This document shows, in pieces, positions 3 through 20,244 of a stretch of 37,314 nucleotides of DNA. A model generated the notes under the pieces. That model was not told the DNA's origin. It worked only from the letters and a program-made list of their open reading frames with translations, and ran no database searches. This DNA comes from a virus. The stretch's first letter is position 1. The number at the start of each line of letters is the position of its first letter. Location of the stretch: IMG/VR virus record IMGVR_UViG_3300031566_000172, positions 1 through 37,314 of that record; one strand, 5' to 3'. The position numbers and the translations under genes were made by a program.

Positions 3-3000
3 GATCAGGTGGACATGAACACCGGACCCAAGGGCGGGGGCATCACACCGGCCATCCATGCTTGGGCGAGCAAGAAGTACGGCAAGGGCAACGGTGTCAG
101 CATCACCAATGCTGCGATTGCCAAGCAGCGCGGCTCGATGAGCATCGACGCCCCGAAGGGCAAGCACGTCGAGGTCAGTGTGCGCGGCAAGTACGTGATC
201 GTGAAGACGGAGGGCAAGAAGGCTGCGTTCTTCGAGCTGAACGAAGCCACCGACGACGACACCGACGACCTCCCGGCCAAGGCTGAGGCGGGCCTCAAGG
301 CTAAGGCGAAAGAGATGGGCGCGATCAAGGTCTCGGGCAAGGGTCCGAGCGTGAACGCGACGTTCGACGACAAGGCCAAGGCATCGAAGTTCTTTGCGCA
401 CGCCAAGACGGTCGGCAAGGCCGCGATGCGCCGCTCCGGCGACACCGAGTTCACGGTGCACATCGACGAGGACGTGGACGAGGCTGCGGGCGGGTTCATG
501 GACATCGACCCCGGTTCCGACGCGGTGCGTACGCTCGTGGACGCGGGCATCAAGGCGCTGGAGAAAGATCCTCGTTGGAAGGCTCTCGACAATCATGGCA
601 AGCGCCAAATTGTCATTAGCATGAAGACCGGGTACATGAAGGCGATCAACCGCAAGCAGGATCAGATCATCACGCTCGATCTGTCGAAGGAGGGCGGGCC
701 GAAGTTCCGCACTACGATTCCTCGCGGGGCCAAGCAGGGCGATCACAAGTACAACCCGTTCAGGAACGAGTCGGTGGACGAGGCCAAGGGCACCGTGCGC
801 GTCACCGTCAAGAAGAAGGACGGTGAGTGGGCGGCCGTCTACTTCCTCGACGGCAAGCAGCAGGAAGGGCCGACCTACTACGCGGGCGGCGACGACCGTG
901 AGGCGAAGCAGGACGCCGAGAGCACGGCCAAGGCGATGCGCAAGCAGGCCAAGGCCAAGGGCTTCACCGTTCAAGAGGACGAAGAGCTGCCCGAGGGCTG
1001 CGTTGCACTCGGCGACGGCCGCTACTTCGCCGCCGGTGCGATCTGCGAGACCCTTGACGACGCGCGCGGGCTTCTGTTGCTCGGCACCGACGAGGACGAA
1101 GAACCGAAGCCTTGGCACCCGGACCTGGAGTTCGATGAGGACACCGACGAGTCCATCGACGAGATGGGTCAGATCTTCCGCATCGGTAGCGGCGGCCTGA
1201 CCCCGATCGACACCTCGATGGCCCTCTCACCGAAGTCGTCCTACTACCTCGGTGCATCGAGCAGCCCGACGCACATCGTCGTGACGGCCGTGGACGACAA
1301 CTTCATCACCTACTCGCAGTACCCGTACACGACCACGCACAAGATCGAGACGCAGGTGGGCACGGACTTGATCGCTCAAGGCACCCGCCGCCACATGAAG
1401 ACCTACGCGGCGCATCTGGACGCCAAGCAGAAGGCGTCGTGGGAGGCGAACCTCAAGGGCAAGCCCGGCGCGCTGAACGGCAAGCAGCCCGTGAAGGGCT
1501 TTCAGTACGTGCTCGTCACCTGTGTCGAGAACGGCAAGACGCGCAACCTCTACGGCGAGACGAAGAGCTGGGGCGTCCTGACCGGCTATTGGGAAGACGG
1601 TAAGCCGGGCATGAAAGGCGACGCGGCAGGGAAGCCCACGACCACCATCAAGGTTCCGCGCAACCGCGTGCCGAGCATGAAGTCCGAGGGCGGCTTCGAC
1701 ATCGTGTCGGTCGGCAAGAAGGTCGTGGAGTCGGACGACGACTACTGCGACTGGATCGACGAGAACGAGATCGACGAGTTCACGAGCGCCGCCATTCCCG
1801 CGATCGGCACCATGCACCCGTGGGTCAGCCCGTACGGGAGCGAGATGCAACGGCTCGTAGAGCCCGAGGATCTCGCGGACGCTGACGCTGACGAAGCGCC
1901 GGACGGCTGCGTGCTCGATGAGCACGGCAACGTCGAGATCCTGACCGAAGCGGTCCATCCGACCGTCGAAGGTTTCCTCATGCACCTCGTCGGAGGGCTC
2001 ACGCAGAAAGACGTGCGTGACGTGCGCCGTGCTGCCAAGAAGGGCGGGTACACGAACCCGTACCAGCTCGCGCACTGGCTCGGTGCCAAGCAGGCGGTCG
2101 AGAAGTCGATGGGCAAAGCCAAGATGAAGAGCAGCGACCCCGTTGACTTGAAGCGTCTCAAGGCTCTGTTGGCCGACAAGTTCATCGTCGATTACATGAC
2201 GCCGGTGAAGAACACCATCAAGGCGATCGACGTGTTCCTCGCGACCGGCAAGGCCCCGATGTATCCGGGCGTTCGTGCGCAGCGGGTCAAGAAGCTCCCG
2301 GAAGCGCAGGCGATCGCCGCGATGCCGGAGGTGCTCGAAGCGATGGAGTGGGTCGAAGACCACTGCGAGATGTTCATGGACATCGAGGAGGCGGGCATGG
2401 CTTCCGACTACCTCGGTACGGCCGCCGGTCGCCGGAAGGTGTCGAAGGCTGCTCGTGCTGGCTTCAACACGGATCAAGCATTTCCGCGCGGATCGAAGGC
2501 CAAGAAGCTGCTCGACACCGCCGACACGGCGCTCATCAACGTCTTGCAGGACGGCATCGCGAAGCTCCGTGTCGCGATCCGCAAAGCGCAGGCGGGCGAC
2601 CAGAACCTTCAACTCCACGCGATCCCCGGAGCCAGCTCGAAGGATCTGCTCAAGCCGGTCGTCAAGGCGTTGCAGGGCTACGAGAAGACCGTGGGCTACC
2701 TCGTCAAGCAGGCGCAGACGGCGGAGAGCATCGACGAGGACACGCTCGAAGAAGGCGCGAGTCTCCACGATGCGCTCGCCGCCATGTTCGTGAGCAACCG
2801 AGGACGCGCCTACACGGCGAGCAACATCGCGAAGCTCCAAACTGTGAGCCTCGCGGAAGCCATGAAGGTGCTGACGACGCTCGTGCGGGAAGGCACCCTC
2901 CAGTTCAAGCGCAGCGAAGGCTATTCGCTTCGTGGGAACTCAGGGTCACTTCGTATCGCGGGTGCGCGCAAAGGGGCGCGGGCTGCGCGTGTCAGCGATC

Positions 3001-4973
3001 AACGCACCTACTACGAAGACGTGGACGAGGACGAGCTGGGCGAGCGGGGTTGGACCCCGCCGCCGGGAGGCATGGATCTAACTCGCAAGGCGTCCAAGCC
3101 TGACCCGACGCCCCCGCAGGCGTACGCGGTGATGCGCGGCAAGGAGGTGCTCTACCTGACTAACCGCCGCGCTTCGGCGTTCAAGTGGATGTCCGCGCTC
3201 GGGGATTCGGACCTGCAAGTCGTGAAGAACCCGCAAGGCTGGAAGCGCCTGTGGCCTCAGTTGGGAGACTTGCTCCCGGAAGCGGTGGATGAGGGCTCGA
3301 TGCCCGACTCTCTGTTCACGAGCCCCGCAGGCCCCAAGGGTCCGAAGATCAGTCGCAAGCTCACCGCTTCCGACTTCTCCAAGGGTGACGCGGGCGGTAA
3401 AGGTCCCGTGAACCATGAGCAGCTTCGAGGCCCGGCCCCCGATGCCAAGCGTACCGCCATGACGTTCGCGGAGGATGACGATGCCGACGAGACCACGACC
3501 TCCGGGACCGTCGGCGGGTTCTCTCGGGAGGCGATCGGCGGCTACCCGGAGAACAAGGGTCGCGAGGGCGGCATCCGTGACGACAGCAAGAAGAAGAAGA
3601 AGGGTCCGCGCAGCACCTTCGCAGGCGGCTCGTTGGGTCGTGTGCTCGAACAGATGCGCGAGTCGCTTCCCGAAGCCACCGACGAGGAGCTGCTCGACAT
3701 GCTCGACCTCGACGAGCGCACCTACAAGACCGTCGCGGTCTACCCGAAGACGCAGAGCGGCCCGTGGGTCGTCGCTGATCCGTTCGGCCAGGAGTGGGAG
3801 TACGGCACCAAGGACGAAGCCATGCAGGCCGCGCACGGTCTCGCTGCCATCGAGTATTGGGACGTGAACCTCATGTCAGGCAAGGTCGCGTCCGAGTCCG
3901 AAGAGGACGACGCGGAGTCGCTCGACGAAGGGCTGCGTCCCGGTCACATGTTCGTGCTCGTGGACACGTCCGTCCCGGGCGGTCGCATGATCGGCGACGT
4001 GATTACCGGCGTGAAGGCCGCCGACGCCAAGGCGGCCAAGCTGCGCAAGACGAACCCCAAGGTTCAGGTGATCGACGCGCTGTGGTACGGACCGTCGCGC
4101 GAGAAGCTCATCGCCTCTGGCACGGTCGCCGAGTCACCCGACGAGAGCGTCGCGAACAACAAGCGTCCCGTGACGCTCGGTCCTCTTGAGAAAGAGGTGA
4201 TGCGCGTCGCTCGTGCGTTCGGTACGCAGAAGTTCAGCGCCGCAGAAGTGCAGGCCGCGAGCAAGTCGCTCGGCCGACTCAGCACCGCAGAGACGGCGGG
4301 CGCGATCGACATGCTGATCCGCAAGGGGATGCTGGCCGGTGCGAACGACTACTTCTCCATCCTTGGCGAAGGCAAGGCCGAGATCTATGGCGCACGCGAC
4401 AAGAAGGAGAAGGCCGACGCCAAGAAGGAGAAGTCGAAGGCCGCCGCGCGCAAGATGTGGGACGAGCACAACAAGGCTGCGACCGCGAAGCGCAACGAAG
4501 ACGACGAGTCCGAGGACGAGCTGGAAGAGGCGGTCGTGAAGACCGGCAACCCCGAGGTGCCGGAGATTGGCTTCGAGCGCGGCGCGTACTGGTACAAGTC
4601 GAAGAGCGGTATGAAGAACGGCCCGGCCGTGCCTCCCGGCAAGCGCAAGGACCGCAGCTTCGCCCGCGAGAAGTTCCGCTACATGCTCGGCAACGAAGCG
4701 GGCGGCGGCATGGGCCAAGGCGCTGCCTCGAAGCTCATCGACAAGCTCGACGCGATGGTCCCGGAGAGCGCCGACGCGCCGGAGCCGGAGGTCGTCGAGA
4801 CCACACGCGAGCCCCTCCAGTTCCCGGAGGCTCAGCTCGAACGCTACGTCTTGGCCGCACAGGCGGCCGGAATCCACGAGGACGACCCCTGTTTCGTCCA
4901 CGAGGACGGCATCTTCACTGTCGAAGTGCCGTCGGACTTGGCTCCGCGTCTGCGCGAGCTGGTCGGGGTGTAG
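3..4973 (+). CDS. Giant modular protein, probable internal-head polyprotein (5' end outside window)
   Basis: The frame is open from the first bases, so the gene probably begins upstream; the first possible start inside is GTG at 9, with no ribosome binding site in view. About 1,654 residues follow. I recognise no family over the whole length. The protein consists of short, dissimilar globular segments separated by Asp/Glu-rich linkers. Linker cores ESVDEA, ESIDEM, ESIDED, EAVDEG and ESLDEG recur, and LPE/A, LTE/A, LEE/A and LEE/G also occur. These fit the (L/I)-X-E cleavage consensus of T4-type prohead proteases, and such a protease is encoded at 18631-20244. Two segments (about residues 919-975 and 1388-1459, counted from the GTG) have a winged-helix-like pattern, which is a guess from sequence. 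A Lys-rich run lies near residue 1197. The inferred role is a precursor of internal or ejected virion proteins; a non-cleaved scaffold or core protein is the alternative. Confidence 0.75.
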   Translation, partial: DQVDMNTGPKGGGITPAIHAWASKKYGKGNGVSITNAAIAKQRGSMSIDAPKGKHVEVSVRGKYVIVKTEGKKAAFFELNEATDDDTDDLPAKAEAGLKAKAKEMGAIKVSGKGPSVNATFDDKAKASKFFAHAKTVGKAAMRRSGDTEFTVHIDEDVDEAAGGFMDIDPGSDAVRTLVDAGIKALEKDPRWKALDNHGKRQIVISMKTGYMKAINRKQDQIITLDLSKEGGPKFRTTIPRGAKQGDHKYNPFRNESVDEAKGTVRVTVKKKDGEWAAVYFLDGKQQEGPTYYAGGDDREAKQDAESTAKAMRKQAKAKGFTVQEDEELPEGCVALGDGRYFAAGAICETLDDARGLLLLGTDEDEEPKPWHPDLEFDEDTDESIDEMGQIFRIGSGGLTPIDTSMALSPKSSYYLGASSSPTHIVVTAVDDNFITYSQYPYTTTHKIETQVGTDLIAQGTRRHMKTYAAHLDAKQKASWEANLKGKPGALNGKQPVKGFQYVLVTCVENGKTRNLYGETKSWGVLTGYWEDGKPGMKGDAAGKPTTTIKVPRNRVPSMKSEGGFDIVSVGKKVVESDDDYCDWIDENEIDEFTSAAIPAIGTMHPWVSPYGSEMQRLVEPEDLADADADEAPDGCVLDEHGNVEILTEAVHPTVEGFLMHLVGGLTQKDVRDVRRAAKKGGYTNPYQLAHWLGAKQAVEKSMGKAKMKSSDPVDLKRLKALLADKFIVDYMTPVKNTIKAIDVFLATGKAPMYPGVRAQRVKKLPEAQAIAAMPEVLEAMEWVEDHCEMFMDIEEAGMASDYLGTAAGRRKVSKAARAGFNTDQAFPRGSKAKKLLDTADTALINVLQDGIAKLRVAIRKAQAGDQNLQLHAIPGASSKDLLKPVVKALQGYEKTVGYLVKQAQTAESIDEDTLEEGASLHDALAAMFVSNRGRAYTASNIAKLQTVSLAEAMKVLTTLVREGTLQFKRSEGYSLRGNSGSLRIAGARKGARAARVSDQRTYYEDVDEDELGERGWTPPPGGMDLTRKASKPDPTPPQAYAVMRGKEVLYLTNRRASAFKWMSALGDSDLQVVKNPQGWKRLWPQLGDLLPEAVDEGSMPDSLFTSPAGPKGPKISRKLTASDFSKGDAGGKGPVNHEQLRGPAPDAKRTAMTFAEDDDADETTTSGTVGGFSREAIGGYPENKGREGGIRDDSKKKKKGPRSTFAGGSLGRVLEQMRESLPEATDEELLDMLDLDERTYKTVAVYPKTQSGPWVVADPFGQEWEYGTKDEAMQAAHGLAAIEYWDVNLMSGKVASESEEDDAESLDEGLRPGHMFVLVDTSVPGGRMIGDVITGVKAADAKAAKLRKTNPKVQVIDALWYGPSREKLIASGTVAESPDESVANNKRPVTLGPLEKEVMRVARAFGTQKFSAAEVQAASKSLGRLSTAETAGAIDMLIRKGMLAGANDYFSILGEGKAEIYGARDKKEKADAKKEKSKAAARKMWDEHNKAATAKRNEDDESEDELEEAVVKTGNPEVPEIGFERGAYWYKSKSGMKNGPAVPPGKRKDRSFAREKFRYMLGNEAGGGMGQGAASKLIDKLDAMVPESADAPEPEVVETTREPLQFPEAQLERYVLAAQAAGIHEDDPCFVHEDGIFTVEVPSDLAPRLRELVGV

Positions 4974-5052: not shown

Positions 5053-6492
5053 ATGCCTATCGAACTGAAACCGAAGACTGCCGTTGCCGATGAAGGCGCG
5101 GCTCACGAGGCCAAAGGTCTCATGCTGTTCAACGAGGACGGTGAGCTGACCCTCGCGGGTGAGACCATCGCTGACTTCCTGGAGAGCGCCGACTTCTCGG
5201 CCGTCACGGAGTCGCCGGACGCCCTTCCCTTCCTGTCCAACCCCGCAGCCTCCGCTGACGATCCGTACGCGATCGACGAAGAGGGTGGCGAGGACGACGA
5301 GAACGACGACGGCGCGGGCGATGAGGTGCTCGACGGTGGAGAGGGCGATGCCGCTCCCGCCGAAGCACCCGCCGAAGCACCCGCCGAAGCACCCGCCGAA
5401 GCACCCGAAGGCGACGACGCTCCGGCCGACGACGCCGACGCGCCCGTTGCCGAAGTCGTGCTGCCCGGCGCAGTCGCGGTGCGTCTCGTGGACGAAGACG
5501 ATCTCGTCGAGATGTTCGGCTACTACCTCAACCAGCTCTCGGCCACCGAGGACCCGACGCTGCAAGAGCAAGCCACGCTCGCGGTGTTCGCGGACTTCCG
5601 CGACGAGGACGGAGGCATCTCCGAGGACCAGCGTGAGATCGTCGCGGGCCTCTTGACCGACGTGCTTTCCGAAGGCTTCGTGTACGACGCCGCCGAGGAG
5701 ATCAACGAGAAGTTCCTGACGAAAGGCGCGCGCAAGAAGATGGCGCGCATCCGCAAGAAGCCGAAGAGCGGCAAGCGGCGCATGGAACTCAAGAAGCGCA
5801 AGCGTGAAGAGAACCGTGGTGCGAAGAAGGCCAAGATCGGGCGTCAGAAAAAGGCGTTCAAGCGTCGTCGTGCCGGTCGCATCAAGATGTTGGCCCGTGA
5901 GTCGCAGGAAGGCGCGCTCGTCTTCGGTCTCGGTGACGGCATCAACGGCGCGAACTTCAAGATCGGCGTCAACGAAGACCCGAACCTGGAGTTCACCGTC
6001 GATCAGCTCATCGAGTTCGATCAGATGGGCGGCAACGTCTTCGAGTGCCCGAACGAGGAGTGCAAGTCCTCGCATCCCTTCGCCGCCTTCGTGGACGAGG
6101 CCAAGAAGAAGAAGAAGGCCAAGAAGAAGGACGCCGACGGCGACTACGACGACAGCGAAGAGGGCGAGGGCGCGTGCGAGGGCATGTGCCCCGACTGCGG
6201 TGAGGTGGTCGAAGCCACCGCAATCGACGAGAAGGGCAAGGTCCCGCCCGCGTTCCTCAAGAACATGAAGAAGAAGAAGGGCGACGGGGAAGACGACGAC
6301 TCCGACGCCAAGAAGGAGAAGGGCAAGAAGAAGGACGAGTCCCACAGGACCGGCTCTTCTCATGTCCCCGGTGCCTTCGCGGTCGCGGCCGGTCGCCCCA
6401 ACCTCTCCGAAGGTCACAGCCTCGCGGCGGCGACGCTCGGGGCGATGGGACGCGCGAAGCCGAAGCCGGTCTTGACCGAAGACGAGGACTAA
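5053..6492 (+). CDS. Acidic/basic zinc-ribbon protein, possible head core protein
   Basis: This 479-residue protein starts at an ATG preceded by AGGAG. Its order is: an acidic N-terminal third with four copies of an Ala-Glu-Ala-Pro unit (near residues 103-118), a short acidic helical domain, a strongly basic stretch (about residues 230-280, rich in Lys and Arg), a folded segment, and a split zinc-ribbon motif (CPNEEC near residue 334 and CEGMCPDC near residue 378) interrupted by Lys-rich and Asp-rich runs. The C-terminus is again acidic. VDE/A and IDE/K matches to the prohead-protease consensus occur near the zinc ribbon. I recognise no named family. Charge-segregated, low-complexity composition and position beside the giant protein suggest an internal head or DNA-associated virion protein, but this is inference. 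Confidence 0.8.
   Translation: MPIELKPKTAVADEGAAHEAKGLMLFNEDGELTLAGETIADFLESADFSAVTESPDALPFLSNPAASADDPYAIDEEGGEDDENDDGAGDEVLDGGEGDAAPAEAPAEAPAEAPAEAPEGDDAPADDADAPVAEVVLPGAVAVRLVDEDDLVEMFGYYLNQLSATEDPTLQEQATLAVFADFRDEDGGISEDQREIVAGLLTDVLSEGFVYDAAEEINEKFLTKGARKKMARIRKKPKSGKRRMELKKRKREENRGAKKAKIGRQKKAFKRRRAGRIKMLARESQEGALVFGLGDGINGANFKIGVNEDPNLEFTVDQLIEFDQMGGNVFECPNEECKSSHPFAAFVDEAKKKKKAKKKDADGDYDDSEEGEGACEGMCPDCGEVVEATAIDEKGKVPPAFLKNMKKKKGDGEDDDSDAKKEKGKKKDESHRTGSSHVPGAFAVAAGRPNLSEGHSLAAATLGAMGRAKPKPVLTEDED
5359..5406 (+). repeat. Four tandem copies of a 12-base unit
   Basis: The unit GCCGAAGCACCC is repeated four times without change, in frame, and encodes an Ala-Glu-Ala-Pro linker within the zinc-ribbon protein. 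Perfect copies suggest recent expansion by slippage; copy number may vary between related phages. Confidence 0.9.
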
Positions 6493-6592: not shown

Positions 6593-7021
6593 ATGAGTGA
6601 GCCCCGACACATCCTGCCTCCGGTGAGCACGTCCACGATCGACCTTCGGTCGCAGGCCACGGGGTTCTTTGCGCAGCGGCGCAAAGCCGTGGTGCAGGAG
6701 GGGCGGGCGATCCCGCGAGAGGTCGCGGAGGTCTACGGCGATCTCCCGGCCGTCGAAGCCGCCCGCACGGCCGCTAAGGCTCCCACGGAGGCCCCTGAGC
6801 CTTCCCAGCTCCCCGAGGCGACTGAGACGCGCTACACGCTCGCGCAGCTCGTTCAGAAGCTCCAGGAGCGCACCTCACGCAAGCGGACGGTCGTGGAGTC
6901 GGGTGACCCGGACGGACCGGACGAGGGCTGGGACCCCGGCGACATCAAGCCCACGCAAGGCGGAGGGGGCGCGGCGCTCGCCGCAGGCGCGATGGCTCAC
7001 CGGCGGAGGCAGTCTCGATGA
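6593..7021 (+). CDS. Hypothetical protein, 142 aa
   Basis: The ATG at 6593 follows GGAG at 6583-6586, and its stop overlaps the next start (ATGA at 7018-7021). The N-terminal part contains an Arg/Gln-rich segment (FFAQRRKAVVQEGR) followed by an Ala/Pro/Glu-rich stretch; the middle has one predicted helix (TLAQLVQKLQERTSRKR); the C-terminus is Gly-rich and ends in RRRQSR. I do not recognise a family. Translational coupling to the next gene and the location in the block of linker-rich proteins suggest a small virion or assembly protein, without direct evidence. Confidence 0.7.
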   Translation: MSEPRHILPPVSTSTIDLRSQATGFFAQRRKAVVQEGRAIPREVAEVYGDLPAVEAARTAAKAPTEAPEPSQLPEATETRYTLAQLVQKLQERTSRKRTVVESGDPDGPDEGWDPGDIKPTQGGGGAALAAGAMAHRRRQSR

Positions 7022-7962
7022 CCCGACTCGTTGAGTACCTGTTCAGTGACCTCGGCGTCCCGACGCCTGACGCGGGCGACAATAGCCACATGGGCTATGG
7101 CGACCCCGGTGAGGATGGGATGGCGACCCGCAACGAAGGCCCGGTGGAGTACGGCTACGGCAACCCGCTCGCCTATCTGGACGGACAGCCGATCTCGTTT
7201 CACTCACGGCACGACATCGCGAACCGCGAACACGATCGCACCACGTACGACGAGCAGGAGGCGATCCGCTATCGGGGCGTGCTCAGCTCCCCGTGGGAGT
7301 CCGTCGATGAGGCGACCGATTCGTACGCGGCGTTCGCCCGCGCGCACCAGCAGGCGGGCACCAAGTCCAATCCCAACTTCCCCAAGTACATCTCGCACGG
7401 CATCTTCAACGATGCGGCGACTGCACGTAAGGCGGGGCCGATCGTGCGCAAGGTGGGTGGTGTCATCGGTGTGGACTCGATTGGTGCGTGGGGCCGCACG
7501 TCGCACTACCAAGCCATTCAGCGTTGGGCCAAGCTCGGCATTCGCGTGGATGGCCTGACGAACACGTTGCCGGGCACTCCGGTCGCTAACGAGTCCGATC
7601 CTGGACACAGTGTCCAGGATCCGCTCGACGAGGCGCTCAAGAAGGGCAAGAACGAGCCGAGCGCCGGTGACACTCGCGCGATCAAGAGCCTCACGGACGG
7701 CAAGTACCCCGCGAAGTCGGAAGACGGCAAGGGCTTCTGTTTCCAATGGGCGGACGGACGCGGCATCGTCGCGTTCAAGTGGCGGAACGATGCGCTGCGC
7801 TGGGCCAAGGCCGAGCCGCGCGACATCGTGAAGTTCTGGTACGGCGAACCTGTCCACTCGAACGGCAAGTTCCGCATCCGTGTCACCGACAGATACCGCA
7901 AAGAGGAGGCCGTGGGCGCACAGACGTTCAGCGAGCTACTCCTTGAGCGGCTTACTCTGTGA
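7018..7962 (+). CDS. Hypothetical three-part protein with prohead-protease-like linkers
   Basis: The 314-residue product starts in an ATGA overlap with the previous gene. It holds two matches to the linker core of the giant protein: ESVDE/A ending at residue 98 and PLDE/A ending at residue 205. These divide it into a Gly/Tyr-rich N-terminal part, a middle part of about 107 residues (NPNFPKYISHGIFNDAATAR, then a Gly/Val-rich strand region) and a C-terminal alpha/beta domain with several Trp residues (FQWADGRGIVAFKW). The family is unknown to me. If the sites are cut by the phage protease, three small mature proteins would result. The GHSVQ segment just before the second site is encoded by a perfect DNA palindrome (7597-7621). 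Confidence 0.75.
   Translation: MTRLVEYLFSDLGVPTPDAGDNSHMGYGDPGEDGMATRNEGPVEYGYGNPLAYLDGQPISFHSRHDIANREHDRTTYDEQEAIRYRGVLSSPWESVDEATDSYAAFARAHQQAGTKSNPNFPKYISHGIFNDAATARKAGPIVRKVGGVIGVDSIGAWGRTSHYQAIQRWAKLGIRVDGLTNTLPGTPVANESDPGHSVQDPLDEALKKGKNEPSAGDTRAIKSLTDGKYPAKSEDGKGFCFQWADGRGIVAFKWRNDALRWAKAEPRDIVKFWYGEPVHSNGKFRIRVTDRYRKEEAVGAQTFSELLLERLTL
7597..7621. repeat. 25-base perfect palindrome carrying the CTGGACACnGTGTCCAG core
   Basis: Two 12-base arms, GATCCTGGACAC and its exact complement, flank a single central A at 7609. The 17-base core occurs again at 14959-14975 and, with one mismatch, at 32144-32160. It lies inside a coding region, so it is either a protein-binding site tolerated by the gene or a folded RNA element. 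Confidence 0.8.
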
Positions 7963-9147: not shown

Positions 9148-9345
9148 GTGCGGTGCTTTATATGCAAAAAGGTAGTGCTGCCGGGCGACGCCCGGACCCC
9201 GCACAAGGCACCGATCCAAGGTCGGCTTCGGCCAACGTCTTCACACACGACCTGTTTCAATGACGCCAAGCGCAGGGGTTACACGAGACCTCGTATGACA
9301 ACTCCTGCACATGGCGAAAAAGTCCAAGGCCAAGCGCCGACGTAA
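9148..9345 (+). CDS. Small CxxC...HxxC protein, 65 aa
   Basis: The GTG at 9148 opens a frame with an N-terminal CFICKK motif and a downstream HTTCFNDAKRRG motif, the spacing of a zinc-binding knuckle of about 35 residues. It begins three bases after the previous stop and overlaps the next gene by 35 bases in another frame. The ribosome binding site is poor. The motif pattern is what makes it credible; the C-terminal part after about residue 48 looks like read-through in the overlap. The family is unknown. Confidence 0.5.
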   Translation: MRCFICKKVVLPGDARTPHKAPIQGRLRPTSSHTTCFNDAKRRGYTRPRMTTPAHGEKVQGQAPT

Positions 9346-10555
9346 CTCACCGGCGAAGAAGTACGCGCAGGTCGTGATCGAGAGGCTCGTCCTCGACGAC
9401 ATCATCGACGCCGCCTACAACGCGCGTCTGATCTCGCAAGAGGCGTTGTCGGGGCTCACGCAGAGCCTCCTGGACTTCGGGCTCCTCGCCCACCTCGTCG
9501 TCAACAAGACGGCGGACGGCTACGTGATGGTGAGCGGTCACCAGCGCCGCAAGCTCCTGCGCGACGGCGGCACCACGGAAGCCGACTGCATCGTGGTCGA
9601 GTTCGACCCCGAGCAAGAGCGCCACGCCAACTACACGCTCAACAACCGCGAGATCCAGGGCGAGTTCGTCCCCGAGTTGCTCAAGGACGTGCTGGCTCGC
9701 ATCAAGGAAGGCGCGGGCGACGGACACAAGAAGCTCTTTGAGCGGCTGCGCTTCGACACCCTGTACCGCACGGTGATCCGGCAGCTCGCTAAGCAGGCGG
9801 ACCCGAAGAAGAACGGCAAGGTCTCACGCGGCAAGACGCGCGACGACGACATCCCGAACCTCGCCAGATCCAAGGCGGTCTCGAAGGACGGGATGGTGTA
9901 CCGGCTCGGCGACCACTTGCTCTACTGCGGGAAGGTCACGGCACCTGGAAGCCTGTCGGTGTTCGAGTGCGAAGCCGCTGACCTCGCGTTCAGTCGCTTC
10001 TCGCAAGACGACCCGTTCACGGACGAGTTCCTCCAGGTCACGATCGGGCACATTCTCAAGAACACCGAGGGCGCGGTCTACCTGTCAACGCACCTAGACT
10101 CACTTGCGAGCGTGCACGCGGCGTTCGACAGCATGGGCGGTCACTGGAGCAACACGCTCATGTGTGCACCGCCGGACGCCAAGGGTCGCAAGGACGACAT
10201 CTACCGCGACGTGGTGGTGCCGGTCGTGTACGGATGGCGCGAGGGTGCACACCACGCCTTCTTCGGTGGCCGTCGCAACGCGAACGTGATGGCGCTCGAT
10301 GACTCGCCCCCGAAGACCGACGTTGCGGTCGAGGTGGTGCTCGCCGCCATGCAGAACAGCAGCCGCCCCGGCGACACGGTGCTCGATGCGTTCATGGCGC
10401 ACGGCGCGACGCTGATCGCGGCCGAGAAGGCAGGGCGCAAGCTCATCGGATACGTGGGCTCACCTCGCGAGATGGACCGCATCCGAAACCGTTGGACCCG
10501 CTTCGTGCACGGACCGAGTGCCGATTGGCGGAAGAAGACGGGGGAAGTTGCTTGA
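9311..10555 (+). CDS. ParB-like domain fused to a catalytically dead DNA methyltransferase domain
   Basis: This 414-residue protein is colinear with the intact ParB-methyltransferase at 13080-14327. The N-terminus is basic; a ParB/sulfiredoxin-like domain keeps the GHQR motif (residues 76-79). The C-terminal half follows a beta-class amino-methyltransferase, but the motif IV position, DPPY in the paralogue, reads SRFS (228-231), and the cofactor-loop motif DPFAGSGTT reads DAFMAHGAT (359-367). The last 35 residues are clearly homologous (RNRWTRFVHGPSADW against RHRWAEQVHGTEADW). The frame is intact over its full length, so it is probably a maintained pseudoenzyme rather than a decayed gene. 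Possible jobs are DNA binding without modification or partnering the active paralogue; both are inference. Confidence 0.8.
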   Translation: MAKKSKAKRRRNSPAKKYAQVVIERLVLDDIIDAAYNARLISQEALSGLTQSLLDFGLLAHLVVNKTADGYVMVSGHQRRKLLRDGGTTEADCIVVEFDPEQERHANYTLNNREIQGEFVPELLKDVLARIKEGAGDGHKKLFERLRFDTLYRTVIRQLAKQADPKKNGKVSRGKTRDDDIPNLARSKAVSKDGMVYRLGDHLLYCGKVTAPGSLSVFECEAADLAFSRFSQDDPFTDEFLQVTIGHILKNTEGAVYLSTHLDSLASVHAAFDSMGGHWSNTLMCAPPDAKGRKDDIYRDVVVPVVYGWREGAHHAFFGGRRNANVMALDDSPPKTDVAVEVVLAAMQNSSRPGDTVLDAFMAHGATLIAAEKAGRKLIGYVGSPREMDRIRNRWTRFVHGPSADWRKKTGEVA

Positions 10556-13079: not shown

Positions 13080-14327
13080 ATGGCGGCGCAAGCGCAGATC
13101 AAGTCCGAGTTGGAGGTCGTGAAGTACGACCTTCGTGAGCTAGAGTTCGCGCCCTACAACCCGCGCACCATGACGCCGGAGGCGCGCACGGGGCTGCACG
13201 AGTCGCTGGAATCGCTCGGGCTCTTGGAGCTGCCGATCGTCAATGTCAGCCACGACCCTCCCAGAATCGTTGGCGGCCACCAGCGCGTGCGCGACTTGCT
13301 CGACGCGGGCTACACGCACTCCGATTGCGTGGTGACTCGCATGGACGACGTGGCGGAGATGGCGGCCAACTTGTCGCTCAACAACCCGGCCACGCAGGGC
13401 AGCTTCGACCCCGTGAGGTCGCTGCCGAACTTGGAGCGCGTCGCGCAACGTCTGCCGACTCCCAACTACACGCGCTTCGAGGAGATGGGCACGAAGCTGC
13501 GCGAGGCTGCACGGCGCGTGAACGCGACCACGAACCCGAAGGCAGCGGATGGCGCGACGAAGAAGCAGACGACGCCCGACTCCGAGCCCGGGATGATTTA
13601 CCAGCTCGGTGAACACCGGCTCTACTGCGGCGACTTCCGCGACGGCATTCCGGCGTTGCTCAAGCGCAAGAAGGCGGCGGTCACGATCACCGACCCGCCG
13701 TACAACCTCGCGTACACGAGCGGCAAGTGGTTCCGCAACGACAAGCTGCGGGAAGAGATCGAGGGCGACGAGCAGACGCCCGAAGCGTGGGCGGAGTTCG
13801 CACGCGAGTTCTGCGGCGCGATCCTCAAGGTCACCAATGGCGCGATCTACATGTTCACGTCTGCGAAGGAGTTGCCGTCCGTGCAGCAAGCCTTCGAGGA
13901 CGAGGGCGGCGCGGTGCATCGCTGGCTCGTGTGCTGGAAGAACGCGCACACGCTGTCGCCGAGTGACTATCACCCGCAGTACGAGCTGGTCCTGTGGGGC
14001 GCGCACGCCAGCGCGGACCTCAGCTACTACGGTGGGACGAAGACGAACGTGCTCCCGACGAAGCGTCCGTCGAAGTCGGTACATCACCCGGCGCAGAAGC
14101 CCGTGGCGTTGATTCGCGAGCTGGTCGAGGACGCGACCGACGTGGGCGATCTGATCCTCGATCCCTTTGCAGGGTCAGGGACTACGATGCTCGTGGCCGA
14201 GGAATTGGAGCGCGTCTGCTACTCGTGCGAGATCGACCCCGAGCACTGCGATACAATCCGCCACCGTTGGGCCGAGCAGGTCCACGGCACGGAAGCCGAT
14301 TGGAAGACCCTGACCCTCGGAGACTGA
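13080..14327 (+). CDS. ParB-like domain fused to a beta-class DNA amino-methyltransferase
   Basis: The 415-residue product starts at ATG 13080 after GAGGAAA. Residues about 12-110 form a ParB/sulfiredoxin-like domain with the GHQR motif (66-69). The C-terminal half is an S-adenosylmethionine-dependent methyltransferase: motif IV TDPPYNL (DPPY at 205-208) precedes motif I DPFAGSGTT (361-369), the order of beta-class N4-cytosine or N6-adenine enzymes, with the recognition region between. The HPAQKPVALIRELV segment before motif I is typical. It probably modifies phage DNA, protecting it from host restriction or marking it for packaging. No cognate nuclease is adjacent. A degenerate paralogue lies at 9311-10555. 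Confidence 0.92.
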   Translation: MAAQAQIKSELEVVKYDLRELEFAPYNPRTMTPEARTGLHESLESLGLLELPIVNVSHDPPRIVGGHQRVRDLLDAGYTHSDCVVTRMDDVAEMAANLSLNNPATQGSFDPVRSLPNLERVAQRLPTPNYTRFEEMGTKLREAARRVNATTNPKAADGATKKQTTPDSEPGMIYQLGEHRLYCGDFRDGIPALLKRKKAAVTITDPPYNLAYTSGKWFRNDKLREEIEGDEQTPEAWAEFAREFCGAILKVTNGAIYMFTSAKELPSVQQAFEDEGGAVHRWLVCWKNAHTLSPSDYHPQYELVLWGAHASADLSYYGGTKTNVLPTKRPSKSVHHPAQKPVALIRELVEDATDVGDLILDPFAGSGTTMLVAEELERVCYSCEIDPEHCDTIRHRWAEQVHGTEADWKTLTLGD

Positions 14328-14481: not shown

Positions 14482-15008
14482 TCCTCATCGCGGGACTGCC
14501 CTCCAGTGGGAACCATCTTGTTTTCACTCACGTCCGCAGGGGCGTGGAGGCGAGGGATGGGCATCTCAGCGTTGAGGGCGTGGACCGCGAGACCGTGCAG
14601 ATCTGGCACGGCGACAACGCCAGCCCGAATCTCAAGCGGCCGGAGGGCGATCGCGTCGTGTTCGTGATCCCGGTTCGCAACGAAGCTGTCCGTGCGCTGT
14701 CGATCGCGAAGCGCATGGAGCGTCAGCACCGCAGGACGTTCCCGATCGACAATGACGCGATGCGTCGCAACGTGACCCGTCTCATCGTCGATAACGACGC
14801 CCCGTGGTACGCGGTCAGCTACGAGGGCCTCGTGGCCGACCCGAACCGTTCGGCCCGCAACCTCTTCGACTGGTTGGGGCTCCCGTGGGTGCGCTGGCCC
14901 GAGGTCGGCTCAACGCACCAAGGCCCTGTTTTCGATGCCAACGAGGCACATTCTTCCTCTGGACACTGTGTCCAGCCGACCCCCTACATCGAGGGACAAG
15001 CGACATGA
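14478..15008 (+). CDS. Sulfotransferase-like protein
   Basis: A 176-residue product overlapping both neighbours by four bases. The N-terminus LIAGLPSSGNHLVF fits the 5'-phosphosulfate-binding loop of PAPS-dependent sulfotransferases. A strand and helix (VVFVIPVRNEAVRALSIAKR) follow, matching the region that carries the 3'-phosphate-binding Arg and Ser. The C-terminal YEGLVADPNRSARNLFDWLG resembles the conserved family ending in which the sugar- or peptide-modifying members have YEDLV...L..FLG. The domain is shorter than the usual 250-300 residues, so it may be a minimal or divergent form. Substrate unknown; phage DNA, glycans or host surface are options. Confidence 0.6.
   Translation: MILIAGLPSSGNHLVFTHVRRGVEARDGHLSVEGVDRETVQIWHGDNASPNLKRPEGDRVVFVIPVRNEAVRALSIAKRMERQHRRTFPIDNDAMRRNVTRLIVDNDAPWYAVSYEGLVADPNRSARNLFDWLGLPWVRWPEVGSTHQGPVFDANEAHSSSGHCVQPTPYIEGQAT
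14959..14975. repeat. Perfect copy of the 17-base palindrome
   Basis: CTGGACACTGTGTCCAG: two perfect 8-base arms around a central T, inside the 3' part of the sulfotransferase-like gene, about 30 bases before the MazG-like start. It is read in the same codon phase as the copy at 7597-7621 (GHCVQ here, GHSVQ there). Confidence 0.8.
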
Positions 15009-15625
15009 TCGAGTGGAACGACTACGCGGACGCAGCGGTCAGCACCGCCATCTACCCCGGCCGAGGCATGAAGCTCGGGCTCCTGTACGCGACGCAAGGG
15101 CTGCGCGGTGAAGCGGGCGAGGTGTGTGAGCACGGCAAGAAGCTCTTGCGCGACGACGGCGGGCAGCTCACGGCTGAGCGACGCGGACAGTTTCAGAAGG
15201 AACTCGGCGACGTGTGCTGGTACGCGGCAGCGGTCGGGTTCGAGTCGCGGTTCGAGTTGGGGAGCGCGACGATCCGCGATCAAAAGGACTGGCCCGAGCA
15301 ACTCAACTACGTGGGGCGCGGCACTGCGATCGGTATCAACTACGCGACCGCACGGATGCACAGCGCCACCGCGAAGGCGGGGGACTTTGCGTTGCGCGTC
15401 ATGCCGTACGTGCTCGAAGACGGACAGAACTGGACGGAGGCGATCGACCAAGGCCGCAAGATCCGTGCGTCGATCCGCACGTCGATCGCACACGTCATGT
15501 TCTGGGCCAGTGAGGTCTGCGTCGCCACCGACCTCTCGCTCGCGATGGTGATGCGCGCGAATCTGGAGAAGCTCGCGGACCGTCGCGATCGTGGTGTTCT
15601 TCAAGGTGGCGGAAGCGAACGCTAG
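15005..15625 (+). CDS. MazG-like nucleotide pyrophosphohydrolase
   Basis: Starts at ATG 15005 in an ATGA overlap, with GAGGG upstream; 206 residues. The MazG pattern is visible: a first metal-binding helix GLRGEAGEVCEHGKKLL (about residues 31-47), the second acidic helix KELGDVCWYAAAV (about 65-77) and the family-typical ending NLEKLADRRDRGVLQGGG. A segment of about 75 residues lies between the second helix and the helix that normally precedes the ending, so the fold is longer than a single-domain MazG and may hold a second, metal-free half. Phage MazG proteins hydrolyse NTPs or (p)ppGpp-type nucleotides and alter the host stringent state or nucleotide pool. Confidence 0.8.
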   Translation: MIEWNDYADAAVSTAIYPGRGMKLGLLYATQGLRGEAGEVCEHGKKLLRDDGGQLTAERRGQFQKELGDVCWYAAAVGFESRFELGSATIRDQKDWPEQLNYVGRGTAIGINYATARMHSATAKAGDFALRVMPYVLEDGQNWTEAIDQGRKIRASIRTSIAHVMFWASEVCVATDLSLAMVMRANLEKLADRRDRGVLQGGGSER

Positions 15626-15635
15626 GCTGTCAACC

Positions 15636-16736
15636 ATGCCGACCGTCCCGCGCTCAGTACGCGAGCAAGCGTCACGCGCGCTCAAGCTCCACAAGAGAAC
15701 GCCCGTCTTCGGCGTGGGCGGGTCCGCTGTAGCGGAACGACTCTCGACCGAAGACGCCGTGGAGTTCGAGACCGTCGGTCGGATGCGTCGCTTCTTCACC
15801 GTGAACGAGAAGCAGTACGCCGACGCTCTCCAGCTCCAGCACGGCGCACACAACAGCCCGCTCATGCGTTCGTGGGCGCTGCATGGTGGCGACGCCGGGA
15901 AGGTGTGGGCGGAAGCCGCGTACCAGTCGGGCGTCAAGGCAGGCGAGGTCGATGAGGACCAGTGGGTCGCGCTCTTGCGTATGGAGCCCGCGCAACTGTA
16001 CGAGCGACTCAACTTCGGCGCGTGGAAGTGGGAGTACGGGATGACCCCGAAGTCCGCTGCACGCTTCGTCGAGGAGTACACGCGCGCACACCGCACCGAC
16101 TTCCGCTACGACCGTGCGTTCGGCGATGGCGGCGAGTCGGTCAAGACGGCGCTCATCCGTCGCATCGAAGGCGACAACCCGTTCAAGACGCTGGCTCGTG
16201 CCGTCACGCACCCCACCCTTGTTGAGAGTGCGGGGCGAGATCTGCGTGAGCACCGTGCGTCGCTCGGACACACGACGCTCAACTGGCCGGAGTTCGTCAC
16301 GTACTTCGTGCTCGCGGTTGAGGAGTCGCAGACGGCGTGCGCGCTGACGGGGGAAGGCGAGTTCCCGTGGCGAGGACGTGCCGTGAAGCCGGTGTTGGAG
16401 TATCTGGATCCGGTGGCGAGCTACGTGACGTTCTTCCACCCGCAGGGCGCGTGCTACCACAAAGACGCTCCGCAGGGCCTTCTGTCGGGGATCGACCGCC
16501 TCATGTGGCAGACTCACGAGGGCACGCTCACGGACGCGGCCTTCGTGCGCGAGACGCTGCGTACGGCCCGCGTGTGGACGGCACGCCACCAGCACGCGCG
16601 GGGCCTCGGACACACGCTTCTTGAAGCGTGGGCGCGAAGAGAGTGGGATTGGTTCCTGGAGGCGCTGCCCCTAGACTCTCCTTTGCGCACCCCGCTCGAA
16701 GTCTTTGTTGCAGAAGAGCGGCGGAACGCCCCTTGA
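15636..16736 (+). CDS. Hypothetical protein, 366 aa
   Basis: ATG 15636 is chosen because it follows the MazG-like stop by ten bases; an in-frame GTG at 15591 is the alternative. The protein is mostly helical with many Trp, His and Arg residues. A Gly-containing motif lies near the N-terminus (VFGVGGSAVAERL), then NSPLMRSWALHGGDAGKVW, a repeat-free middle, and a His-rich C-terminal helix (RVWTARHQHARGLGHTLLEAW). I recognise no family. It forms the end of a run of four tightly packed genes (14329-16736) with the sulfotransferase-like and MazG-like genes, so a nucleotide or macromolecule modification role is possible. Confidence 0.7.
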   Translation: MPTVPRSVREQASRALKLHKRTPVFGVGGSAVAERLSTEDAVEFETVGRMRRFFTVNEKQYADALQLQHGAHNSPLMRSWALHGGDAGKVWAEAAYQSGVKAGEVDEDQWVALLRMEPAQLYERLNFGAWKWEYGMTPKSAARFVEEYTRAHRTDFRYDRAFGDGGESVKTALIRRIEGDNPFKTLARAVTHPTLVESAGRDLREHRASLGHTTLNWPEFVTYFVLAVEESQTACALTGEGEFPWRGRAVKPVLEYLDPVASYVTFFHPQGACYHKDAPQGLLSGIDRLMWQTHEGTLTDAAFVRETLRTARVWTARHQHARGLGHTLLEAWARREWDWFLEALPLDSPLRTPLEVFVAEERRNAP

Positions 16737-18309: not shown

Positions 18310-18713
18310 CGTTGCTCACTCCGCGACGAGGACAGGCCCCCGTGCCCGAGGTGCTGCCGGGCGACTTCTTCGTCCTGGAGTTTTCGCGGCTGACCGACAC
18401 CTTTCTCTTGCATGTAGACGACGAGGATCGAAGCACCTACGATCTGGGCGATGAAATTGCCGCGCTACAGATGCTCTTCCGCACCCGGACGAACGCAGTC
18501 AACGGAGGCCCCCTCCAGCCGGAGCTGATCGACCGCACGATCGACATCGCTCGGGAGCTGGGCATGGCTCAGTACATTCCGACTCTGGGCGAGCTGGTCG
18601 AAGACCGAGTGCTTTCGATCGTTCCCCGAGATGCCAACCGAGGGCTCAAGTTCGATGAAGACGAAGACCAAAAAAACTGGACCCACGGGCTCCGCCAACG
18701 AGTCGGTCGCTGA
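18306..18713 (+). CDS. Hypothetical protein before the prohead protease, 135 aa
   Basis: It starts at GTG 18306 in a GTGA overlap with the zinc-ribbon gene and overlaps the protease gene by about 60-80 bases in another frame. The N-terminal half is beta-rich (VLPGDFFVLEFSRLTDTFLL), the middle has an acidic helix (YDLGDEIAALQMLF) and the C-terminal part is acidic then basic. I do not recognise it. In T4-type genomes small prohead core proteins lie directly before the protease, so a core or capsid assembly role is a positional guess. A promoter-like pair sits inside the gene at 18413-18443. Confidence 0.6.
   Translation: MTLLTPRRGQAPVPEVLPGDFFVLEFSRLTDTFLLHVDDEDRSTYDLGDEIAALQMLFRTRTNAVNGGPLQPELIDRTIDIARELGMAQYIPTLGELVEDRVLSIVPRDANRGLKFDEDEDQKNWTHGLRQRVGR
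18413..18443 (+). promoter_or_regulatory. Putative internal promoter, TGTAGAC-N18-TACGAT
   Basis: TGTAGAC (18413-18419), 18 bases, TACGAT (18438-18443): same motif and spacing as the intergenic sites but inside a coding region, about 190-210 bases before the protease starts. It could raise expression of protease-scaffold and capsid genes. A chance match in coding sequence cannot be excluded. Confidence 0.4.
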
Positions 18714-20244
18714 CCTACCCCGCATTCTTTGCGAAGGCTGGTTGGACGAAGGCTGCGAAGGGTCATGCGTCTTCATCCCCGAGCGCGCGTATGTCATCCA
18801 AGACGACAAGGCGTGGTTCGCGTGGGGTAACGCACAGCTCGACGAGTCGATGGGAGACGTGCATCTCGTCGAGAGCTTCGACGATCTCGACCTCGAAGAG
18901 CGCGTTGTCAACGGCACGAGCGTCAAGATGCCGAAGGGCGGACGTTGGGTAGTCGAGGGTCCGGGCCAACGCTCGGACGTGAAGAACGCGAATCAGCGCA
19001 CTTACTCCCGCAAGATCTGGGAGAAGCTGGTCGGCGACAAGGACAGCTACGTGCAGCAGGCGATCACCGAGCGCGCGATGGTCGGTCACCTCGAACACCC
19101 GAAGGACGGACGCACCGACCTCAACAACGCAGCCATCCTCACCACCAAGGCCGAGCTTCGCGAAGACGGCGTGGTGTGGAACCAGTTTGAGCTGCTCGAC
19201 ACGCCGGGCGGCGCTGTCCTGCAAGAGCTGACTCGCAAGGGCGTCAAGTGGGGTGTCAGCTCGCGTGGCACCGGCACGGTCGGCGACGACGGCGCGGTGA
19301 GCGAGTCCGACTACACGCTCAAGACGTGGGACGCCGTGGCCTCTCCCAGCACGCCGGGCGCGCACCCGAAACTCGTGCTCTACGGACGCCAGCGCAACGA
19401 GAACACCGACGAGGACGCTCCTGTCCTGTCGGAAGAGGGCACCCAGACCCTCGAACACCTGATCGAACTGACCGAGACCGAAGCTGACGGCATCTCCGAG
19501 TCCGTCGTGCTCCGCCGAGACATCCTCTCCACCCTCGCGACCCTAGACGAAAGCGACCTCCAGGCCGCGATCCTCGGGGACCAGGGCTGGGCGAAGATCC
19601 ACGCCGCCATCGAGCGCGCGCGTGCACTGTCGAACGGCGATGGCATCGACGAGGCGATCGAGGAAGCCCTCGCAAGCGGCGAAGGTGAGGACGAGACGAG
19701 TGGGAACCTTCTGGGGACCATCGAAGACCTGCAAGAGCAGGTCAGTGATTCCGTGGCCGAGAACATCGAGCTACGGGAACAACTGGAAGCTGCCGAGTCC
19801 GAGCGCACTGCGCAGACGGAACGGCTGGCTGTGGTGGAAGGGGAGCTGACCCAACTTCGGGTCGAGTGTGACCTTGCACGCGAGCTTCTGGCAGAGACCC
19901 CCGGCCGAAACGTCGGGGATGTGGCCGCTGCGGCGGACGAAGCAATCAGCATGGAGCCCGAGCTGGAACGCTTCCGCGATCTCATGGAGAGCGTGGAGAC
20001 GGTCGAGCAGGTCCGCACCCTTGCTGAACGCCTCGCCCCGGTCGTGCACAAGCCCGCTCTCGTCGTTGAGACGGAGGAGCCGGTGGTGCCGCCCAAGCCA
20101 AAGCGACGCGCGCGGACCGCTCTACCCGTCGGAGTGTCTTTGAACGAGACCGTCGTGAGGCGATCAAGAGTTGTCCCGACGATCGCGGAGTCCTCCGGGG
20201 CTTCCCTCGTCGCGAAGATGCCCGGCTTCAAAAGAACCTCGTGA
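18631..20244 (+). CDS. Prohead protease (T4 gp21 / peptidase S80-like) fused to a scaffold region
   Basis: The first 250 or so residues carry the T4-type prohead protease signature: GHLEHP with the catalytic His at residue 153 (from ATG 18631) and GVSSRGTG with the nucleophile Ser at 210 or 211, separated much as in T4 gp21. The region after residue 270 is acidic and helical, with a long coiled coil (about 360-420), and resembles a scaffold core protein, normally a separate gene (T4 gp22). IDE/A and IEE/A sites (around residues 338-346) and LDE/G near residue 37 fit self-processing. The start may instead be ATG 18655, which has GAGGG upstream. The enzyme should mature the prohead by cutting capsid, scaffold and internal proteins. 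The major capsid gene follows. Confidence 0.92.
   Translation: MPTEGSSSMKTKTKKTGPTGSANESVADLPRILCEGWLDEGCEGSCVFIPERAYVIQDDKAWFAWGNAQLDESMGDVHLVESFDDLDLEERVVNGTSVKMPKGGRWVVEGPGQRSDVKNANQRTYSRKIWEKLVGDKDSYVQQAITERAMVGHLEHPKDGRTDLNNAAILTTKAELREDGVVWNQFELLDTPGGAVLQELTRKGVKWGVSSRGTGTVGDDGAVSESDYTLKTWDAVASPSTPGAHPKLVLYGRQRNENTDEDAPVLSEEGTQTLEHLIELTETEADGISESVVLRRDILSTLATLDESDLQAAILGDQGWAKIHAAIERARALSNGDGIDEAIEEALASGEGEDETSGNLLGTIEDLQEQVSDSVAENIELREQLEAAESERTAQTERLAVVEGELTQLRVECDLARELLAETPGRNVGDVAAAADEAISMEPELERFRDLMESVETVEQVRTLAERLAPVVHKPALVVETEEPVVPPKPKRRARTALPVGVSLNETVVRRSRVVPTIAESSGASLVAKMPGFKRTS

Follow-up and report, generated by a model that had tools for sequence, protein, structure and literature searches.

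Polyproteins are a hallmark of RNA viruses, and a gene at one end of a viral contig of 37,314 bases (the whole stretch of DNA analysed, hereafter the window) raises the question of whether a tailed phage could make use of one as well. The contig belongs to a T4-type contractile-tailed phage, and the product of its giant frame (3-4973) is a chain of at least a dozen modules, most of them 50-200 aa in length. An earlier note on this DNA read the chain as a polyprotein that is cut inside the head by the prohead protease. That reading is now supported by the conservation of the putative cut sites, by their placement at module borders and by their low density in tail proteins, while the N-terminus that the note had assigned to the protein was wrong. 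We regard it as highly probable that the gene encodes a prohead-protease-processed polyprotein of head-packaged effectors, the freed domains of which would enter the next host.

The giant gene, its relatives and its neighbours

The GTG at position 9, previously taken as the start codon, is not the beginning of the gene, as the contig ends within the open frame and the relatives extend further upstream, with about 800 (G016) and 580 (G001) codons ahead of the matching module. Because the giants of these relatives extend upstream, the window gene is considered the 3' part of a longer gene; residue numbers are nevertheless counted from GTG 9. Searches of Pfam, PHROGs, 50,697 phage records and, using peptide patterns, viral contigs returned no match for the window giant protein, and no domain family of Pfam or PHROGs was detected in it at threshold. 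Relatives were reached via a scan with the capsid protein, which identified 20 viral contigs. In two of these, G001 (156 kb) and G016 (72 kb), the same place upstream of the protease is occupied by a homologous giant, with 2,620 codons in the former and 2,508 in the latter, and a second giant (2,325 codons in G001 and 2,020 codons in G016) lies directly before the homologous one. Giants of the same style with other modules were found in G005 (2,082 codons), G013 and G008, and no recognisable giant of such a type is present on the examined sequence of G014, G017 and G018. The product of the second, small module-bearing gene of the window (7018-7962) matches G001_g1 at 43% over 126 aa and the G013 polyprotein at 30% over 77 aa. 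In the G005 polyprotein (L084:4588-10833, minus strand), one module is apparently duplicated around an ESVDE↓V linker, which suggests growth by tandem duplication.

In the head region, the gp21-type protease gene is followed by the gp23-type capsid gene and then by neck, sheath, tube and baseplate genes (Table 1). A role of the giant as tail tape measure was dropped because its gene precedes the head genes and stands apart from the sheath, tube and baseplate genes. The giant gene is adjoined by a gene at 5053-6492, the position of which is conserved in relatives; its very acidic product, with a Lys/Arg-rich block and four [VIL]DE sites, could represent a gp67/gp68-like protein of the prohead core. 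Two paralogous ParB-methyltransferase fusions (PHROG 498) are encoded at 9311-10555 and 13080-14327 in a single late-gene region, and a MazG-like pyrophosphatase (14804-15625, PHROG 229) is encoded between methyltransferase and head genes. Relatives have another type of giant near the protease, of about 2,400-2,900 codons and without hydrophobic-X-Glu (hxE) linkers, in which NUDIX and kinase-like motifs were recognised by eye (L041:7557-15344, minus strand). The window has only a short gene (15591-16736) that resembles the N-terminal part of this L041-type giant (PHROG 2859).

Table 1 Coordinates of the giant gene, its predicted cut sites and the related head genes in the window. Arrows mark the predicted cut; numbers in brackets are the residues of the P1 Glu.
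Feature	Position	Strand	Observation
Giant polyprotein gene, 5' end missing	3-4973	+	C-terminal 1,656 codons; one open frame
Predicted site LNE↓A (79)	237-248	+	P1 Glu in both relatives; begins 80%-identical module
Predicted sites IDE↓D (154), VDE↓A (158)	462-485	+	154 kept in both relatives; end of homology
Predicted site ESVDE↓A (258)	774-785	+	Full linker consensus; module not found in relatives
Predicted site LPE↓G (329)	987-998	+	Motif present in window protein
Predicted site ESIDE↓M (385)	1155-1166	+	LDE↓M in G016 despite preceding linker of other length
Predicted sites IDE↓N (585), IDE↓F (590)	1755-1781	+	590 is IDE↓F and VDE↓F in the two relatives
Predicted sites LDE↓H (638), LTE↓A (647)	1914-1952	+	647 is LDE↓S and IDE↓A in relatives
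Predicted sites ESIDE↓D (910), LEE↓G (915)	2730-2756	+	915 is LDE↓G and LAE↓A in relatives
Predicted site VDE↓D (1007)	3021-3032	+	VDE in G016
Predicted sites LPE↓A (1091), VDE↓G (1095)	3273-3296	+	VDE↓S in G016
Predicted site LDE↓R (1236)	3708-3719	+	LDE in G016; extra G016 module inserted here; low-pLDDT gap
Predicted site ESLDE↓G (1307)	3921-3932	+	IDE in both relatives; low-pLDDT gap
Predicted site LEE↓A (1507)	4521-4532	+	Relatives have LVE↓A and LDE↓A; low-pLDDT gap
Second, small module-bearing gene	7018-7962	+	ESVDE↓A and LDE↓A sites; modules common to relatives' giants
gp21-type prohead protease (S77), long C-terminal extension	18631-20244	+	Pfam S77 1.6e-13; PHROG head maturation protease 1.5e-33
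gp23-type major capsid protein	20290-21789	+	Pfam Gp23 8.5e-45; predicted maturation site LDE↓T after residue 80
Capsid maturation site LDE↓T, reference for protease motif	20521-20532	+	Aligned with gp23 maturation site

The prohead protease and its reference site in the capsid protein

T4 gp21-type proteases cut after (L/I)-X-E. The assignment of such a protease to the window was confirmed by alignment, in which H156, S211 and D234 correspond to the His, Ser and Asp of T4 gp21. At the capsid site that corresponds to the T4 gp23 cut, (L/I)(D/N)E↓[TAV] is present in all 20 capsid proteins aligned. For the targeting peptide of T4 IPIII, residues 8 and 10 (P3 and P1) govern processing, and Asp at residue 10 blocks it (PMC9026906). 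Covariation of P2 between linker and capsid was considered as well and none was seen: the distant G021, which has ESLGE↓G linkers, still reads LDE↓T in its capsid protein. The C-terminal extension of the window protease is rich in sites and coiled-coil-like. The next gene is that of the capsid protein, a separate gp22-like scaffold gene being absent from this position, and the protease gene looks like a protease-scaffold fusion.

Frequency of the linker motif in the giants and in control proteins

All 16 of the Glu positions that had been listed as possible cut sites are Glu in a [VIL]-x-E context. Compared with composition-preserving shuffles of the same window protein, the giant contains 38 [VIL]xE (21.3±4.0 in shuffles), 20 [VIL]xE[AGS] (5.7±2.2) and 12 [VIL]DE (1.6±1.2), and the ES-[VIL]-DE core described as recurring was found four times as ES[VILT]DE against about 0.02 in shuffles. 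Sites in the giants are spaced at a median of 73-104 residues, and among 107 distinct [VIL]DE sites P1' is mostly Ala (35), P5 Glu (55) and P4 Ser (31).

An equal density of sites in unprocessed tail proteins, which would have spoken against cutting, was not seen, as [VIL]DE is absent from the tail sheath, tube and baseplate hub; it is absent from the window methyltransferases too. In a relative, a multidomain protein of 2,595 aa that has no such linkers contains 3 of these motifs against 1.7 expected. Across the whole 156-kb contig of G001, 16 of the 19 E[ST][VILT][DE]E motifs are located in the two giants and one in the protease gene, with zero in the long tail genes. When the window and the contigs of seven relatives were scanned for an excess of hxE[AGSK], the genes marked were chiefly those of the protease and the polyproteins, together with others nearby in the head region. 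With the looser [VILM]xE[AGSK] pattern the window giant reached z=4.3, slightly below the scan cut-off, and G016_g1 and G001_g1, which have more Thr at P3 or other P1' residues, were left unmarked.

The proposal had come with the caveat that acidic linkers raise the chance of matches. Overall, Glu and Asp are present at 1149:1024, yet Glu follows E[ST][VILT][DE] 45 times and Asp only 3 times; in the giants, [VIL] is followed by DE or EE 133 times and by DD or ED 24 times. Generic acidity is thus no explanation, because Asp is about as abundant as Glu and yet is avoided at P1. A minority of the relatives' linkers carry Thr at P3 (ESTDEA, DETDEG); by the rule of T4 these would not be predicted to be cut well, which counts against the reading.

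Conservation of the sites, module borders and module shuffling

Alignment with the relatives demonstrated the pattern expected of cut sites, with hydrophobic P3 and Glu P1 conserved while the linkers drift. Among the window and two relatives, P1 Glu was kept at 33 of 42 aligned sites versus 29 of 59 further Glu that lie at most 10 residues away (p=0.002), and in 32 of the 33 cases where P1 was kept the P3 residue was hydrophobic or small (Thr and Ala counted). The P2 residue drifts, as illustrated by LTE↓A, LDE↓S and IDE↓A at residue 647. Both relatives retain the P1 Glu at 79, 154, 590, 647, 915, 1307 and 1507. The Glu listed at 1222 (LPE↓A) is present in the window but has been lost in both relatives, which have MPG and LPG.

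Module edges and sites tended to fall together: among 162 ends of ungapped homology blocks, 49 lie at most 5 residues from [VILT][DE]E, compared with 16.9±4.1 (maximum 33) in 2,000 rotations of the sites. Structure prediction was in weak agreement, in that, of 8 sites, 6 fell into low-confidence gaps (p=0.017) of an AlphaFold2 model of residues 1150-1654, which had a pLDDT of 54.0 and was used only for such gaps. A model of residues 361-1178 (pLDDT 36.6) was too poor and was set aside.

The relatives contain the same modules in shuffled order, one of them moved between the two giants. The module after site 1307 (window 1292-1381) has been relocated in G001, where it matches G001_g2 892-978 and stands ahead of modules that precede it in the window. 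Similarly, G016_g2 410-478 matches G001_g2 2150-2225, and the module at 1159-1312 of G016_g1 sits in the other giant of G001 (G001_g2 1790-1942). An extra zinc-ribbon module of G016 is inserted exactly at site 647. The module after site 915 is winged-helix-like, based on a weak MarR/ArsR-type match (E=0.07).

Modules that also occur as separate genes

Among the modules of the upstream giant is a P-loop kinase (Zeta toxin/AAA_33), which has homologues in marine T4-like phages, where each forms a stand-alone gene with about 220 codons. The N-termini of the stand-alone kinases read MKTFAELQE↓GVYDPNIFKAIF in Melnitz and MIPFILKE↓GLYDPGIFKAFF in HTVC008M, and the same position in the giants reads DDETDE↓GINDRYILKAVF and ELAVDE↓GVYDPFALKAVF. 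Because both are located at the same module position, the xDE↓G site of the giant linker is the equivalent of the stand-alone (L/I)xE↓G site. The kinase was then compared over 66 distinct contexts in 80 viral contigs, using search patterns that did not touch the cleavage site. P1 was Glu and P1' was Gly in all 66, and P3 was Leu in 50, Ile in 15 and Met in 1. Most of these contexts have the N-terminal peptide MKxFxxLxE↓G, which is the form of the T4 capsid-targeting sequence, and their N-termini suggest that the stand-alone kinases would reside in the head. Intermediates between single genes and chains include separate neighbouring genes in HTVC008M and fusions of 910 to 1,474 aa in the marine contigs L097, L117 and L144; G021 has a chain of 2,687 aa with ESLGE↓G linkers.

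The APPGF module has Glu at P1 and Leu, Val, Met or Ile at P3 in 42 of 42 contexts, with the columns further upstream near random. One of the two APPGF search patterns included [LV][DE]E and may therefore have biased P3 and P1; in 27 of the 42 contexts the P2 residue is one that this pattern excludes, and these fit equally well.

The T4-type targeting peptide MKxFxxhxE↓ was not found at the own N-termini of the G016 and G001 giants, which start with MTHTTFDRAIL, MKKQTTGSGM, MPATTFQRAV and MPKNIQGLTG. The giant was not filed as a T4-type internal protein because the giants of G016 and G001 have no N-terminal targeting peptide and the window has no N-terminus. This lack of a T4-type targeting peptide counts against the reading and is its main gap, as it concerns how the giants would enter the head.

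Proposed processing and alternative readings

In the process that we propose, the giant chains would be built into the prohead core, the gp21-type protease would cut them at the hxE↓ linkers while maturing the capsid, and the modules released in this way would be kept alongside the packaged DNA and pass with it into the next host, like T4 IPI-III and Alt. Features expected of an S77 substrate were found together, namely a protease with its triad, Glu at P1 and a hydrophobic P3 at module borders, and a motif like that of the capsid. Judged from sequence, incorporation into the prohead core and cutting by the prohead protease appear strongly supported. The same features suggest that the cuts would fall at the linkers. 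By analogy with T4, the pieces could then survive in the mature head and be ejected (PMC9958956, PMC9026906). Module types in the relatives include the kinase (G016/G001), NUDIX (G013), zinc ribbons, among them a sub-threshold Lar-type restriction alleviation match, and ParB-like domains by inspection. Kinase, NUDIX, zinc-ribbon, winged-helix-like and ParB-like domains would be suited to early host takeover or counter-defence.

The giant might instead be a core or scaffold protein like T4 gp22, gp67 and gp68, shredded into fragments that leave the head before packaging, with nothing delivered. T4 core proteins are cut multiple times at the same motif and then expelled (PMC9958956), there are basic stretches as well as acidic linkers in the giants, and many sites are present in the protease itself. 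Proteins of the gp22/67/68 type are, however, chains of low complexity, helical or charged, that are cut throughout and have no conserved globular modules, whereas the sites described here lie between conserved globular-type modules and not through them. In addition, recognisable enzymes (Zeta/AAA_33 kinase, NUDIX) are among the modules, which are swapped like cargo, and homologues exist as separate genes with cargo-type targeting peptides, so we consider a scaffold improbable. It seems more doubtful still that the giant is a polyvalent effector (Iyer et al. 2017) that is injected whole or cut by an embedded peptidase, its acidic repeats being mere flexible linkers. Large multidomain phage proteins that combine ParB, NUDIX, ART and kinase domains form a known class (PMC5512222), the giants share with it several unlike early-infection domains per chain, and relatives also have such a giant without sites. 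Yet domain searches found no embedded peptidase, which is frequent but not universal in that class, in any giant bearing the linker motif, and flexible linkers need neither Glu over Asp nor a hydrophobic residue two positions before; the absence of sites from the other giant of the same phage group likewise argues against mere flexible linkers. The least credible alternative, to which we attach hardly any weight, is that the motif is a packaging tag, that is a repeated targeting peptide and not a cut site. The targeting peptide of T4 does overlap with its cut site, and targeting is possible without cutting (PMC9026906), but T4 targeting needs residues before P3, which are near-random here while P3, P1 and P1' are kept.

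Relation to known systems

The polyprotein reading has one of its closest parallels in T4, where IPI, IPII, IPIII and Alt are processed by gp21. The protease family, the aligned triad and the hydrophobic-X-Glu↓ rule are the same, both systems involve a class of small, poorly conserved, head-targeted proteins, and stand-alone homologues of one module carry the T4-type N-terminal peptide. T4 devotes one gene to each protein, with its own targeting peptide, whereas the many modules described here share one or two giant chains and have the site in the linker. Polyvalent proteins (PMC5512222), which come nearest among published ideas, are likewise long chains of unlike domains (ParB-like, kinase, NUDIX) with a predicted early action, and Iyer et al. 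2017 already likened them to the polyproteins of RNA viruses (PMC5512222). Their release was ascribed to embedded metallopeptidases, while the likely cutter here is the head-maturation protease acting on a repeated linker motif. In the giant phages SPN3US and phiKZ, head cargo is processed by a protease related to gp21, which recognises a short motif with Glu at its end and cuts behind it (PMC5694885, PMC7411985); there propeptides are removed, eight SPN3US proteins were shown to be processed, and a chain of at least a dozen modules was not described.

The Agrobacterium jumbo phage Atu_ph07 encodes gp53, in which an ART-like domain, VTE↓G, a kinase and further domains are joined in one chain that is only 778 aa long and is not termed a polyprotein in the literature consulted. 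The gene cluster that contains gp53 (CDS 31-76) yielded 29 virion proteins by mass spectrometry, a figure for the cluster as a whole (PMC6102473). The same phage has a tandem row of Alt-like proteins (L090:659-7593; RGMK motif, by eye), nearly all of which start with MKWEQLTE or similar and are candidates for a family of head-targeted proteins; the last protein of the row has the kinase module after VTE↓G.

The protease, its motif (T4 internal proteins) and multidomain chains (polyvalent proteins) are thus already known. We could not find a prohead-protease polyprotein described for tailed phages in the literature searched, which included few subscription papers and no preprints.

Implications

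The wider proposal, on which we are evenly divided, is that T4-type phages from several environments maintain exchangeable collections of head-delivered effector domains in the form of polyproteins cleavable by the prohead protease. Targeted single genes and chains would interconvert through recombination at the cleavage linkers, and a single translation product would supply equal numbers of tens of effectors per head. If the polyprotein reading is true, a tailed phage would make much of its head cargo in this way and would have another means of packaging a large set of effectors together, in which processing falls to the capsid-maturation protease. Giant phage genes that are now anonymous could then be read as sets of predicted mature proteins, each with precisely defined ends, and many of these would be candidates for counter-defence or host takeover. 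Scanning for the linker motif would offer a route to further head-delivered effectors.
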